Of a stretch of 39,198 bases of DNA, positions 17,062 to 23,678 are shown one piece after another (position 1 is the stretch's first letter; each line of letters opens with the position of its first letter). The stretch spans positions 1 through 39,198 of the forward strand of contig JAGDWZ010000035.1 in the NCBI GenBank assembly GCA_023269915.1, written 5' to 3'. The notes under the pieces are model-generated. The model did not search any database, was not told where the DNA came from, and worked only from the letters and a program-made list of their open reading frames with translations. Both the position numbers and the translations under genes were made by a program. This DNA is from Hydrogenobaculum sp. (GTDB lineage: Bacteria > Aquificota > Aquificia > Aquificales > Aquificaceae).

Positions 17062-17325
17062 TTATTTATGCTCCATCTTTTTCATGGGATGATGCCACAT
17101 TTTTCTGTGTGGTCTACAGGCTCTTAGCTCTTTCCAGTTTTGGGCTTTTTCTACGCAAGCCTTGTGTTTTTGTAGGAAATCCATTCTCTTGTCAATCATG
17201 TGAAGGATGCGTGCTTTCACGTGCTCAAATTTTTCTTGAGATTTGGTTCCCTTAGAAGTGGTTGGTTGCGCCAATACAACCCCAGATAAAAATGCAACTC
17301 CTAACACTGCTTTTGCTAACCTCAT
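17062..17325 (-). CDS. Small secreted protein, two Cys, His/Met/Lys-rich C-terminus; unknown function
   Basis: Signal peptide MRLAKAVLGVAFLSGVVLAQ; ...CVEKAQNWKELRACRPHRKMWHHPMKKMEHK. Start corrected to 17325 with AAGGAGG SD. Confidence 0.75.
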   Translation of the reverse strand: MRLAKAVLGVAFLSGVVLAQPTTSKGTKSQEKFEHVKARILHMIDKRMDFLQKHKACVEKAQNWKELRACRPHRKMWHHPMKKMEHK

Positions 17326-17455
17326 ATCAAGCCTCCTTAAAGTTGATATTTTAAATATAAGGCTAAGATGATGAAGATTGGATGAAAATGTTGACTTTGT
17401 AATCACATTTAGAACATTGATTATATTTTTGTTAAAATTAGTTTATAATAAAACT

Positions 17456-18784
17456 ATGGAAGATATAAAGGCTATTGTAAAAAATGTTGTCAAAGATGGC
17501 TTTGAGTTTGAGATATATTTGAGCAAATCCAACAAGGTGAAGATAGACATAGAGGATAAGGTTGTAGATAGAATAGAAGCTTCTAACGAGCAAGGCTTAG
17601 GGATAAGGGTTATAAAAGATGGTAAAATGGGTTTTTCTTATACTACAAAACTTACAAAAAAGGATATAGAAAATTGCACTAAAATGGCTATGGATATTGC
17701 TCTTTCTCAGGATAAAGAAGATGTGTTTGAGCTTTTAAAAGAACAAAAAGAAAATAAAAATTCCATAGAACTATTTGACAAAGAAGGTTTATCAAAGGCT
17801 AAAGAGGAAAAGATTAAGAAACTTATAGACATGGAAGATAAAATAAAAGCCTATGATCCTCGTATATCTTTGGTGAGAGACTTATCTTATACAGAGTCCA
17901 TATACTCGTACGTTATGGAGAACTCTTACGGAGTAAAAGTAGAAGAGACGCTTAGTGGTTTTTTTGTTATGGGGTGTGCTATAGCAAAAGATAGCCAAGA
18001 TACCTCGTCAGGATGCTCTTATATGGCAAGTAGATTTTTAGAAGATATTAATTTTGATTTAATATCGAAAGATATAGCTATAAACACCATTAGTCTTTTA
18101 AATCCTAAAAGCTTTGAAACAAGATCGTTGCCAGTTGTATTTTCGCCGGATAGCATGGTATCTTTGTTGAGGGCTTTTTCTAGTATATTTTTGGGGGATT
18201 CTCTTATAAAAAATAAAACAATGCTAAAAGATAAACTGCAAGAGCAAATAGCCAGTGAAGATATAACTATCATAGACGATGGGACTATAAATAGGGCTAT
18301 TGGAAGCTCTTGTTTTGATGCAGATGGAAATCCTACTCAGAAAAATGTTGTGGTGGAAAATGGTATTTTTAAAACATTCTTGCACAATATATATACGGCA
18401 AAGAAATCTAATCAGGAGCCTACTTCAAACAGTGTAAGGGCTGGTTATAAATCCATACCTCAAACGGGCGTTCATAATTTTTATTTAGCTCCAAAGGAAC
18501 ATTCTTTGGATACTCTTCTTGGTGCTTACGAAGAGTGTGTTTACATTACAGAGCTTATGGGGCTTCACATGGCAGACCCTATATCTGGTAATTTTTCTTT
18601 GGGTGCCTCTGGGATTTTTTATAAAAACGCTAAACCTATGTATCCTATAAGAGCTGTTACCGTGGCATCAAACTTTTTAGAGCTTTTGAAAAAGGTAAAA
18701 TTGGTGGGAAACGATTTCAGGTTTTTTGGTCATGTAGGTTCTCCTTCTGTGTTGGTAGAAAATATAACGATAGGTGGGGTGTAG
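17456..18784 (+). CDS. pmbA: TldD/PmbA-family protein (TldE/PmbA-type, no HExxxH)
   Basis: GLGIRVIKDGKMGFSYT, NSVRAGYKSIPQTGVHNFYL, GLHMADPISGNFSLGASGIFYKNAKP. Start at ATG 17456 (MEDIKAIVK), not 17378. Confidence 0.87.
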   Translation: MEDIKAIVKNVVKDGFEFEIYLSKSNKVKIDIEDKVVDRIEASNEQGLGIRVIKDGKMGFSYTTKLTKKDIENCTKMAMDIALSQDKEDVFELLKEQKENKNSIELFDKEGLSKAKEEKIKKLIDMEDKIKAYDPRISLVRDLSYTESIYSYVMENSYGVKVEETLSGFFVMGCAIAKDSQDTSSGCSYMASRFLEDINFDLISKDIAINTISLLNPKSFETRSLPVVFSPDSMVSLLRAFSSIFLGDSLIKNKTMLKDKLQEQIASEDITIIDDGTINRAIGSSCFDADGNPTQKNVVVENGIFKTFLHNIYTAKKSNQEPTSNSVRAGYKSIPQTGVHNFYLAPKEHSLDTLLGAYEECVYITELMGLHMADPISGNFSLGASGIFYKNAKPMYPIRAVTVASNFLELLKKVKLVGNDFRFFGHVGSPSVLVENITIGGV

Positions 18785-18785
18785 T

Positions 18786-19379
18786 ATGAACCTTTTTACA
18801 TCGCTTTTTGCCATGTTTTGTGCGATATTTTTCATAGTGGGAAGTTTTTACATAGCATCTGATTATTATTATTATACAAAGGAAGAGCATATATCAAAAG
18901 ATATGGCTATGGCTCTTTATAGCATAAAATCAAATTCAAATCAGATAGTGCTACCTTATGGAGAGGACATGGTTGTGGTGGTAAAAACCCCAAATAGAGT
19001 TATAAAATCCACAAATCTCATAAACCATCCTATAGACCAAAATTTGTTTCATGGTGCTACCGAGAAGATAGGCAACGATACTATAATAGTGGGTATAAAG
19101 ATCAGCAGCTTTGGGGATATAATGACAGAGCTTTTTAGAACGCCAATAGCCGTTGGTATGTTTTTAATAGGGCTTATGATTGCCACGTGGATAGTGTGGA
19201 GTCTTAGGAAAACGTTTGTGGACTATTTGGATGAGGAGCTTATAGAGAGGCTAAAAGCTCTAAGGCTTACTATAGCTACTGCTAAGATAATACCTCAGGA
19301 AAGCTCAGAGGAAGCAAAAAGGATAATAGATATAATACTAAGCTATGCTAAAGAACGCTCCAAGGAGAGCAAAACATGA
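18786..19379 (+). CDS. Two-TM membrane protein with extracytoplasmic domain and short cytoplasmic tail (sensor-like, no kinase)
   Basis: TM1 FTSLFAMFCAIFFIVGSFYIA, about 95-aa loop, TM2 IAVGMFLIGLMIATWIVW, helical tail; ATG 18786 preferred over GTG 18774. Confidence 0.7.
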   Translation: MNLFTSLFAMFCAIFFIVGSFYIASDYYYYTKEEHISKDMAMALYSIKSNSNQIVLPYGEDMVVVVKTPNRVIKSTNLINHPIDQNLFHGATEKIGNDTIIVGIKISSFGDIMTELFRTPIAVGMFLIGLMIATWIVWSLRKTFVDYLDEELIERLKALRLTIATAKIIPQESSEEAKRIIDIILSYAKERSKESKT

Positions 19380-20521
19380 AGATTTTGGTATCTTCCTTTG
19401 ACAAGCTTTTGATAGAGAAGCTACAACATCTTCTTTTGGGAGAGAGTGTCGTTTTTGTAAAGAACGGCGAAGAAGCCATAAGAAATGCTCCAAAAGATAT
19501 AGATATAATTATATACGATGCGGTTTCAGGGATAGTCTCAGAAAACGATTTAAATTCTTTGTTTGAAAAAGCCTATAAAGGTGCAAAATATATAATACTT
19601 ATGGATGAACTTTTCCCAATAGACCCAGACAATCTAAGGATGCCCAGCAAGATAGTGATTTCAAGAGATAGAGAGTTATCGGTGCTGCCGGAGCTTTTAA
19701 AAAAATATAAAGAGCTTATAACAAAAGAACATAACGTAAGCTCATCTAAGAATGAATACAGAGCCCAATACTCTACAAAAACTCAAGAAGCACATACTGG
19801 TATCGAAATCTCTGTTGTATCAAAAGATAATGAGCTTTTGGACATTATAAAAAACGCCTTAGAAGATGTGGCTTACATAAAGATATTTTCACCGGAATAT
19901 ACCAACAAAGAAGAGATACTAAATGCTGATATTATAATATACGATACTACCGAGGGCGTTAGTGCTGCAAAAGAGCTAATAAGCATATATCAAGGTTCAG
20001 ATATTCCGGTCGTTATCATATTGGACGATATGTTTCCTATAGACATAAGCCGTATTCCGATCCAGAAAAAGATAGGTATCATAAAAACCGAAGTAAAAAC
20101 TACCCTAAAGCCAATGATTTTAAAGCTTATATCTGATTATAATATTACATCAAGGAAGGCAAAAAAAGGACTAGATAAAATATCGGAGGTTTTAGCTATG
20201 GATTCTTCAAAAAGCCACTTAAAAGATATAATAGTAGATGTACTAAAAGAAGAGATAAGAAGCACAGTAAGAGAGTCGTTGTCTGGCATAGATTTTAAAG
20301 AGCTTGCAAAAAATGCTATACAATCTCAGATAGCAACAGAAGATATAAAAACCCTAATGCTAAACAGCGTAAACGAGATAGTAAACAATATGAGAAACGA
20401 GATCATGAACATCGCCACCAAAGAAATAGAAACCGCCATAAAAGAGGAAGACATAAAAGCTATTATAAGAGAAATCACTACCACTATACTAAAAGAACGC
20501 ATTGAAAGTCTTTTGGCTTAA
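19376..20521 (+). CDS. Tandem degenerate receiver-like (pseudo-REC) protein with helical C-terminus
   Basis: Two halves share DIIIYD...(L/I)xD(E/D)(L/M)FPID with beta/alpha alternation; ATGA overlap with the upstream gene. Confidence 0.65.
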   Translation: MKILVSSFDKLLIEKLQHLLLGESVVFVKNGEEAIRNAPKDIDIIIYDAVSGIVSENDLNSLFEKAYKGAKYIILMDELFPIDPDNLRMPSKIVISRDRELSVLPELLKKYKELITKEHNVSSSKNEYRAQYSTKTQEAHTGIEISVVSKDNELLDIIKNALEDVAYIKIFSPEYTNKEEILNADIIIYDTTEGVSAAKELISIYQGSDIPVVIILDDMFPIDISRIPIQKKIGIIKTEVKTTLKPMILKLISDYNITSRKAKKGLDKISEVLAMDSSKSHLKDIIVDVLKEEIRSTVRESLSGIDFKELAKNAIQSQIATEDIKTLMLNSVNEIVNNMRNEIMNIATKEIETAIKEEDIKAIIREITTTILKERIESLLA

Positions 20522-20523
20522 AG

Positions 20524-22740
20524 ATGAAAAGGCTTATATTGGCAGAAAAACCGTCGGTAGCAAAAGATATAGCATCTGCTTTATGTAAAAGCCTAGACAA
20601 AGACGCAAGTAAAAAGGGGTATTTTGAATGTAAAGATAAAAATCTATACATCACTTGGGCTATAGGACATTTGGTAGAGATAGATGATGAAATAGCACCA
20701 AGAAAATGGAGTTTAGAAACACTGCCTATACTTCCAGAAACCTTCAAATACAAAGTGATAGACAAAACATCAAATCAGTTTAAAGTGATTTCTAAGCTTT
20801 TAAAAGAAGTAGACGAGGTAGTGATCGCCACAGATGCTGGAAGAGAAGGGGAGCTTATCGCAAGACTTATACTTATGCTTAATCATTTTAGGGGGTCTGT
20901 TAAAAGATTTTGGACTTCTGACGCCCTTACAAAAGAAGTAATCTTAAGAGAGATGGAAAATCTAAAAGATGCTTCCTTATTTGATAGCTTGTATTATTCT
21001 GCCCTTGCTCGTTCACACGCTGATTGGATAGTAGGTATAAACCTCACAAGGCTTATGACAGTAAAAGCTGGCGGTGGTGTATGGTCTGTGGGTAGGGTTC
21101 AAACACCCACCCTTAAACTAATAGTAGATAGATACAGAGAAAACAAAGAGTTTATTCCAAAAGAGTACTATGTGATAAAAGCTATATTTGGTGATAAGAA
21201 AAGCATATCTAAATCTTACACTGGTTTTTTGTTGTTGGATAAAATCCAAGAAAAAACTTACAAGACGCTAAAAGATGCTTTAGAAGAAGATGAGGAAAGC
21301 CAAACAAAAAAATCCTTTAACGCCAAATATTTTACACCGCTTTTAGAAGAATCCAAAAACCAAATAATGAAAAAGCTCAAAGACATTGAAGAGGCTATTG
21401 TAAAAGATGTAAAAATCACCAAGAGAAAAGAAAACCCACCACTTTTACATTCACTTACATCTTTACAAAGAGAAGCCAACAGAATATATGGATACTCTTC
21501 TATGAGGACGTTAAACATAGCTCAAAAATTGTATGAGACTTACAAATGTCTTTCTTATCCTAGAACAGATTCAAACTACTTAGGAGAAGATGAAGAGACG
21601 AAAAAACTAGTAAAAGATATGCTAAAAAAGTTGGTGGACAAAAAGACCTTTGAGCTTTTATCAAAAAACGTAGATAAAGTAGGTAAAAGAGTGTTTGATA
21701 GCTCAAAGCTAACAGACCACCATGCTCTTATACCTTTTGGTCCTATACCAGAAAACGCCTCTTCTGATGAAAAAAATATATACAACCTTGTGTATAGGCG
21801 TTTTGTAGGAGCTTTTATGGAACCTTACGAATACGCCATAATAACTATAAAAACCCTTTTAGGAGAGTTTACTTTTTTATCAAATATAAATATAGAAACC
21901 CTTACAAAAGAAGAGTATCAAAGAACCTATCTTTCTTTATATAAACCTTACAAAGAAGCGCTCTTGGAAGAAGATGAAGACCCAACTTTAAAAAATATAG
22001 ACTTTGATTATATTAAAAGCCTAAAACCAGACGATAGAGTTTACAAGAAATCCCTAGAAGCTTTACAAAAATTTACTAAGCCACCAGCTCTTTACACAGA
22101 AGGTACGCTTCTTAAAGCTATGGAAAAGCTTGGGCTTGGTACACCGGCCACAAGGGCTTCTATAATAGAGACGCTTTTAGAAAGAAAATATATATCAAGG
22201 ATAGATAAATCGTTGCTTCCTACGTTAAAAGGCGAAGAGCTTGTAAAATCTCTAAAAGATAGCGATGTATCTAAACCTGAGATGACTACAAGATGGGAAG
22301 AAGAGCTTGAAAGAATATACAAAGAACGAAAATCAAAAGAAGGTTATATAAGGTTTATGCACAATATAAAGGAGTTTGTATCGGACAATATAGATAGGCT
22401 CAAGTTTGTAGAGATGGCTAAAGTGCCTATGGCTACCAAAAAGATGATAGAGTTTGCGAAATCTTTAGCAAAGAAGAAAAATATAAAACCTCCTCATTCA
22501 ACGGATTATGAAACTATAAAAGCTTTTATAGAAGAACACAATGAAAAAAAAGAAGAAAAAGATGGCGTCGAAAGCCCACCCACAGATAAACAGATATCCT
22601 TTGCCAAGGCTCTTGCGGAAAAGTTAAACCAAGAGATACCAGAAGATGCTTATGTTTCTACCAAAACCATGTCTCTATGGATTAAAAACGCTATGAAACA
22701 AACAGGCTATAAAAAATCCTACAGAAGGGGCAAAAAATGA
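20524..22740 (+). CDS. topB: DNA topoisomerase III (type IA)
   Basis: LILAEKPSVAKDIA, ATDAGREGELIARL, SHADWIVGINLTRLMT, VGRVQTPTL, SYPRTDSNYL (catalytic Tyr). Confidence 0.92.
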   Translation: MKRLILAEKPSVAKDIASALCKSLDKDASKKGYFECKDKNLYITWAIGHLVEIDDEIAPRKWSLETLPILPETFKYKVIDKTSNQFKVISKLLKEVDEVVIATDAGREGELIARLILMLNHFRGSVKRFWTSDALTKEVILREMENLKDASLFDSLYYSALARSHADWIVGINLTRLMTVKAGGGVWSVGRVQTPTLKLIVDRYRENKEFIPKEYYVIKAIFGDKKSISKSYTGFLLLDKIQEKTYKTLKDALEEDEESQTKKSFNAKYFTPLLEESKNQIMKKLKDIEEAIVKDVKITKRKENPPLLHSLTSLQREANRIYGYSSMRTLNIAQKLYETYKCLSYPRTDSNYLGEDEETKKLVKDMLKKLVDKKTFELLSKNVDKVGKRVFDSSKLTDHHALIPFGPIPENASSDEKNIYNLVYRRFVGAFMEPYEYAIITIKTLLGEFTFLSNINIETLTKEEYQRTYLSLYKPYKEALLEEDEDPTLKNIDFDYIKSLKPDDRVYKKSLEALQKFTKPPALYTEGTLLKAMEKLGLGTPATRASIIETLLERKYISRIDKSLLPTLKGEELVKSLKDSDVSKPEMTTRWEEELERIYKERKSKEGYIRFMHNIKEFVSDNIDRLKFVEMAKVPMATKKMIEFAKSLAKKKNIKPPHSTDYETIKAFIEEHNEKKEEKDGVESPPTDKQISFAKALAEKLNQEIPEDAYVSTKTMSLWIKNAMKQTGYKKSYRRGKK

Positions 22741-23678
22741 CAATAAAGGATATACAAGAGTTAAAAACCAAAATAGACCAGCTTAAAATACTTTACAAAC
22801 AAGGTAAAACAGATGTAGAAAAAGAGTTGAGAGCTTTTCAAAGAGAATTAAAACAAATATCAAAAGAGTTTTGTAAAAATTTAAGCCCATGGGATAGAGT
22901 AAGCATAGCAAGACACAACGAAAGACCTCAAACCCTTGATTATATAAAAGCCCTTTTTAAGGATTTTGTAGAGCTTCACGGGGATAGATGTTACGGGGAT
23001 GACCCGGCAATTATATCTGGATTTGCAAAATTTTACAACAAAAGCGTGTGTGTTATAGGACATCAAAAAGGAAGAGATACTAAAGACAAAATATATAGAA
23101 ACTTTGGCATGGCTCATCCAGAGGGCTATAGAAAAGCTCAAAGGATTATGAAGCTGGCGGAGAAATTTCAAATACCTATAATCACTTTTGTAGATACGGC
23201 TGGCGCATACCCAGGCATAGGGGCTGAAGAAAGAGGTCAAGCTCAGGCTATAGCCACAAGCATAGAGCTTATGGGAAGCCTGAAAACTCATATAATAACT
23301 GTAATAATAGGAGAAGGTGGTTCTGGCGGTGCTTTGGCTTTGGCGGTGGCCGATAGAATACTTATGCTTGAAAACGCCTGGTATTCTGTGATATCGCCAG
23401 AAGGTTGTGCGGCCATACTTTACAAAGATCAGTCAAAGGTTCAAGAAGCTACAAAATCTCTAAAAATAACGGCTCAAGACCTGTATGAGTTAGGCGTTAT
23501 AGACTGCATAATACCAGAGCCCTATTGCGGGGCCCATCTATCTCACAGGCTTACGTTTTTAAATGTAAAATTTTTCTTACGAAAAGCCCTAAACGAAATC
23601 TTGCAATATAACATAGAAGAAATAGTACGCAAAAGACAAGAGCGCTATCTTAATATAGGCTTTTACGAAGATGCTTAA
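22737..23678 (+). CDS. accA: Acetyl-CoA carboxylase carboxyltransferase subunit alpha
   Basis: IARHNERPQTLDYI, ELHGDRCYGDDPAI, GHQKGRDTKDKIYRNFGMAHPEGYRKA, TFVDTAGAYPG, IGEGGSGGALAL. Confidence 0.97.
   Translation: MTIKDIQELKTKIDQLKILYKQGKTDVEKELRAFQRELKQISKEFCKNLSPWDRVSIARHNERPQTLDYIKALFKDFVELHGDRCYGDDPAIISGFAKFYNKSVCVIGHQKGRDTKDKIYRNFGMAHPEGYRKAQRIMKLAEKFQIPIITFVDTAGAYPGIGAEERGQAQAIATSIELMGSLKTHIITVIIGEGGSGGALALAVADRILMLENAWYSVISPEGCAAILYKDQSKVQEATKSLKITAQDLYELGVIDCIIPEPYCGAHLSHRLTFLNVKFFLRKALNEILQYNIEEIVRKRQERYLNIGFYEDA

Follow-up and report, generated by a model that had tools for sequence, protein, structure and literature searches.

A membrane protein lacking a kinase and a tandem pseudo-receiver protein encoded behind pmbA/tldE in Aquificaceae: a candidate signalling pair without phosphate transfer

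What might a sensor-like membrane protein and a receiver-like soluble protein do together when no kinase stands between them? The question is raised by two adjoining genes, here called A and B, in a window of 39,198 nucleotides of Hydrogenobaculum DNA, which is the whole stretch analysed (Table 1). From the sequence alone, a preliminary description had read A as a two-TM protein with an extracytoplasmic domain and a helical tail, having neither H-box nor ATPase, and B as a 381-residue protein with two receiver-like domains and no output domain, the two genes being coupled through an ATGA at 19376. This reading of both products and of their junction is borne out by hydropathy, structure models and profile comparisons, as detailed below. 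The ATGA overlap spans 19376-19379 and an AAGGAG lies 8 bases upstream of the ATG of B. An alternative GTG start of A at 18774 would add four amino acids. The stop codon of the preceding pmbA/tldE gene ends at 18784, one base before the ATG of A at 18786, and the three genes are tightly packed. A motif check indicates that the pmbA/tldE product next to A is the subunit without the HExxH/HExxxH metal site; a catalytic tldD copy (HEAVGH) lies elsewhere in the genome, and it is the gene for the regulatory-type subunit alone that is linked to A-B.

Table 1. Coordinates of the pmbA/tldE-A-B locus and of the segments of proteins A and B, in positions of the window.
Feature	Position	Strand	Basis and remarks
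pmbA/tldE gene	17456..18784	+	PmbA/TldD family; first gene of conserved trio; Pfam PmbA_TldD domains 1, 2 and 3 over cut-off
Protein A, kinase-less two-TM membrane protein, 197 aa	18786..19379	+	ORF, ATG start; family alignment n=36; AlphaFold2 model, pLDDT 78
A, first membrane segment, residues 3-28 (helix on to residue 48)	18792..18869	+	Hydropathy, model
A, extracytoplasmic region, residues 29-118, four strands, fast-evolving	18870..19139	+	AlphaFold2 model; column identity 0.28
A, second membrane segment, residues 119-141	19140..19208	+	Hydropathy, model
A, cytoplasmic helical tail, residues 142-197	19209..19376	+	Column identity 0.52; alignment n=36
AAGGAG ribosome-binding site for B, inside A	19362..19367	+	Read from sequence
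Protein B, tandem pseudo-receiver with C-terminal helices, 381 aa	19376..20521	+	ORF; family alignments; AlphaFold2 pLDDT 79; Foldseek
B, pseudo-receiver 1, residues 1-112	19376..19711	+	Model, alignment n=43, hhalign
B, pseudo-receiver 2, residues 143-254	19802..20137	+	Model, alignment n=43, hhalign
B, C-terminal helices, residues 321-380	20336..20515	+	Model; last ~20 residues conserved order-wide

The surroundings of the three genes also hold features characteristic of the genus. Past B, the packed gene run goes on with a gene for a type IA topoisomerase-like protein and with accA (20524-23678 of the window), which are absent from this place in other genera. On the other side, at 17062-17406 on the minus strand, a small secreted-looking protein is encoded that is rich in His, Met and Lys and contains two Cys; it is genus-conserved beside tldE and a metal-binding role is possible.

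In the AlphaFold2 model of A, the outer domain is small and beta-rich, and the helix that begins in the second membrane segment runs on into a two-helix tail. This tail is the most conserved part of the protein (column identity 0.52 as against 0.28 in the outer region), with the consensus LKALRLTLATxKIIPEESxxEaKxIvDsIL. Searches of A against Pfam and NCBIfam gave no match to a kinase, HisKA or HATPase domain, and a PDB sequence search with A found nothing. A degenerate HisKA or HAMP domain was considered for the tail and ruled out by profile comparison (1.6% for HisKA, 0.3% for HAMP). Structure prediction, which the preliminary description had named as a check on both proteins, yielded a receiver fold for B but no significant fold match for the outer domain of A: its similarity to the Cache sensor domains of KinD and CqsR (Foldseek probability 0.60-0.80, E 0.25-0.59, none significant) gives a weak hint of a Cache-like fold.

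The AlphaFold2 model of B, built on 43 family members, contains two alpha/beta domains of receiver type with five strands each, mostly at pLDDT >90 and with alpha4 reduced to one turn, followed by a low-confidence linker and C-terminal helices. The top solved match in Foldseek was PleD, a tandem receiver protein (E 1.2e-7). Since dehydrogenases came next at E about 1e-5 and whole-chain TM-scores were low, the packing of the domains being different, the fold assignment rests on the combination of this match with sequence profiles. When compared by hhalign with 27 true receivers from these genomes, pseudo-receiver 1 scored 93.8% and pseudo-receiver 2 88.4%, three unrelated control folds did not exceed 0.8%, and the two domains matched each other at 99.9%. 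The profile of B against PDB chains retrieved mostly response regulators, at sub-threshold to marginal values (best E 0.0026). The curated cut-off of Pfam Response_reg (PF00072) is not reached by B, weak matches occurring in 9 of the 43 members (best E 6e-4), and a genome search with PF00072 marked seven places in this genome, B not among them. Taken together, the AlphaFold2 model, Foldseek and the hhalign profiles confirm that B is a true relative of receivers in the CheY-like superfamily.

Another Rossmannoid family, NARF (PF20299), may be a close cousin of B. Weak NARF matches were found in 19 of the 43 family members, and several genomes have B as their best match to NARF; by profile, true receivers nevertheless match B better. 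One relative of B (L105:6001-7326) passed the NARF cut-off over two stretches (28.7 bits against a cut-off of 25), an observation which suggests a possible kinship between NARF and degenerate receivers. After the second receiver-like domain, no Pfam domain was found in B, so that a known domain was rejected for the C-terminal helices. Their last 21 residues match Hydrogenothermaceae-type homologues (hhalign 62%).

The active-site residues of both domains are altered in a consistent way, and the canonical five of response regulators (DD, D, T/S, K) are not all present in B. All 43 sequences have lost the two adjacent acidic residues that end strand 1: in the first domain the position is occupied by S/T7 and F8 with an Asp one residue on (D9), and in the second by S149 and mostly F, again with an Asp one residue on (D151). 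The Thr position is Asp in both domains (D77, and D217 with one Glu), and the Lys position is R97 in the first domain and Arg, rarely Lys, at 237 in the second (Lys in this genus). In contrast to these losses, the phospho-Asp position is kept in both domains. The residues invariant in the 43 sequences are D9, D48, D77, K92 and R97 in the first domain and S149, D151 and D190 in the second. In the model, the residues at these active-site positions sit where strands 1, 3, 4 and 5 end, around the usual pocket, and in pseudo-receiver 1 D9, D48, D77 and R97 make up an invariant charged cluster. A pseudo-receiver (PsR) is defined as a receiver relative without at least one of the five active-site residues (PMC12632262), and with the acidic pair lost, Thr replaced by Asp and Lys mostly by Arg, both domains of B are pseudo-receivers by this definition.

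Judged from these residues, phosphorylation of B is unlikely, rather than excluded, because Asp48 and Asp190 have been kept. Receivers changed at DD, T or K can retain some chemistry (PMC12632262), and the genome holds at least four HisKA-type kinases, one of which might phosphorylate B on Asp48/Asp190 as a weak response regulator, A modulating the kinase. However, the acidic pair and the Thr are gone from all sequences and the Lys from nearly all, and no histidine kinase gene was found beside the A-B pair in the loci examined; we therefore regard such a role as very unlikely.

Profile searches for A and for B were run across the phylum, and A was found in 63 and B in 62 genomes of Aquificaceae, a family of heat-loving bacteria. 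In all 62 Aquificaceae genomes that have both, B is directly preceded by A on its own strand; the spacing, as measured in the named loci, varies between an overlap of 4 bases and a gap of 37 bases. In the sole genome with A but without B, A stands at a contig end. This adjacency is far beyond chance. The preliminary description had looked to Aquificales for it and would have been refuted by its absence from related genomes; its expectation holds throughout Aquificaceae but not in two other families of the order, which have B homologues without A; the adjacency is therefore an Aquificaceae trait. Likewise, A and B do adjoin as described, but the block that is conserved is larger than a two-gene pair: pmbA/tldE, which had been missed, stands in front of A-B in 9 of 9 genera compared, and the conserved unit consists of three genes. 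Positions -2, -1 and 0 are common to all nine genera, whereas none of the genes beyond the trio is common to more than four. As the flanks have been reshuffled between genera while the order of the trio stayed fixed, the A-B adjacency reflects more than general synteny. It might still be argued that A and B share no function and are an old operon held together by vertical descent alone, given that adjacency by itself is no proof of function and that B occurs without A elsewhere. Retention in 62 of 62 genomes is hard to attribute to inertia when everything outside the trio was reshuffled in the same genera, and we consider this the most remote of the explanations.

The fixed place of pmbA/tldE also admits an explanation in which the three genes form a unit around the TldD/TldE peptidase, with A anchoring B at the membrane and B acting as an adaptor or regulator of TldD/TldE. 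By analogy this is conceivable, as the response regulator RssB serves a protease, and it would account for the gene in front of A-B in nine genera, here at a distance of one base. Yet in the two sister families tldE was not found beside B homologues in the loci examined, and the sequence of B has no feature that points to protease binding, so we hold the proposal to be unlikely. Outside Aquificaceae, B homologues adjoin unrelated genes (TrkA-C, Na/H exchanger, LPG synthase, HypF, ThiI-like), and this context gives no clue to function.

Two side observations were made in the sister-family loci. A GlmS-like frame (glutamine amidotransferase and SIS domains; L172:1-2463, genome G087), which adjoins a single-domain B homologue, is split by an intein with LAGLIDADG endonuclease domains. 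A record titled as a Gammaproteobacteria MAG (locus L124, genome G035) holds a B homologue of the type of sister family f2 and is probably mislabelled or mis-binned.

The relatives of B indicate how the protein may have changed. B of a Hydrogenobaculum sp. locus (L077), from the named neighbours of this genome, is 81% identical to B of the window. In another family of the order, the homologues have a single receiver-like domain, an acidic linker and C-terminal helices related to those of B; the single domain matches each domain of B at 98.6-98.7% in hhalign, only the last ~21 residues of the C-terminal helices of B relate to theirs, and a PDB sequence search with these homologues returned none. 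In a third family, tandem proteins of the B type occur without A. By eye, the alignment suggests that most single-domain homologues keep D, T or S, and K and have lost the acidic pair alone, which together with the loss of T and mostly of K in the tandem proteins would make a stepwise decay series. The occurrence of homologues without A implies either that the partnership with A arose later than B itself or that A was lost in those families, and it implies that the basic role of B is independent of A. From the distribution of the sequences, A is an Aquificaceae-specific partner of B.

The arrangement of a pseudo-receiver, a variable acidic linker and C-terminal helices, which the single-domain homologues share, would also suit a scaffolding role for B, in which it would position or assemble some component at the membrane or pole, A being an anchor and not a sensor. 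The analogy is with FrzS, a phosphorylation-independent receiver joined to a coiled coil (PMC1974792). However, none of the loci examined has genes for motility or polarity close to B and the C-terminal part of B matches no known family, and a scaffold of this kind seems to us distinctly unlikely.

The best reading is that A is a phosphorylation-independent membrane sensor or anchor with the pseudo-receiver protein B as its partner. We give an even chance to the proposal that A and B are a signalling pair linked to the membrane and working without phosphate transfer, in which A is a kinase-less input in direct contact with B. We infer that the small outer domain of A would receive a signal, which the second membrane helix would relay to the conserved helical tail, and that the tail would dock on the pseudo-receivers of B, pseudo-receiver 1 being the likeliest site. 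B would then serve as a soluble switch or scaffold made of two phosphorylation-incompetent receiver domains and a variable linker, and its C-terminal helices would probably oligomerise or bind an output partner. Pseudo-receiver 1 is the most conserved part of B (0.52) as the tail is of A, a pattern that a shared interface would be expected to give. Pairwise distances of the tail and pseudo-receiver 1 correlate after removal of the TldE background (partial r 0.43, computed with this single background gene and non-independent pairs), and other segments of A and B give similar values, so that the correlation is a weak sign of contact. Between B with A and B without A, nine positions differ, mostly conservatively, and the comparison does not map an interface. 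It is quite improbable, in our estimate, that such a phosphorylation-free module of A acting via B would target the adjoining TldD/TldE peptidase; if true, it would be a membrane-to-proteolysis pathway without a described counterpart.

Pseudo-receivers and kinase-less membrane proteins are both already known kinds. In the literature covered, which left subscription papers aside, nothing was found on the A-B pair or on TldE-linked signalling, nor were the constant pairing, the tandem pseudo-receiver without an output domain and the tldE linkage. The mechanisms by which pseudo-receivers switch are described as a mystery, and almost all of those characterised are orphans (PMC12632262). B is a pseudo-receiver protein with a constant non-kinase membrane partner in every Aquificaceae genome examined, and kinase-free direct control of a pseudo-receiver thereby becomes testable on a small thermostable pair.

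Among known systems, the Cache-domain sensor histidine kinases KinD and CqsR resemble A in having two membrane helices around an outer domain, and the outer sheet shows the weak, non-significant fold similarity given above; unlike them, A has a much smaller outer domain and no HAMP, HisKA or ATPase. FrzS from Myxococcus xanthus, like B, has an N-terminal pseudo-receiver followed by helical, probably coiled-coil material, but it contains one PsR, has lost the Asp and kept the Lys where in B the Asp remains and the Lys is mostly gone, and has no membrane partner gene of the A type. PleD from Caulobacter (receiver-PsR-diguanylate cyclase), the best fold match, shares with B the two receiver-type domains in tandem, whereas its first domain is a working receiver and a GGDEF enzyme stands at its end, neither of which B has. 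Compared with the described PsR proteins (PMC12632262), B consists of two PsR in tandem with neither a true receiver nor a known output domain, and it differs from them in its reduced alpha4, in falling under the Pfam Response_reg cut-off and in the constant presence of a gene for a kinase-less membrane partner.
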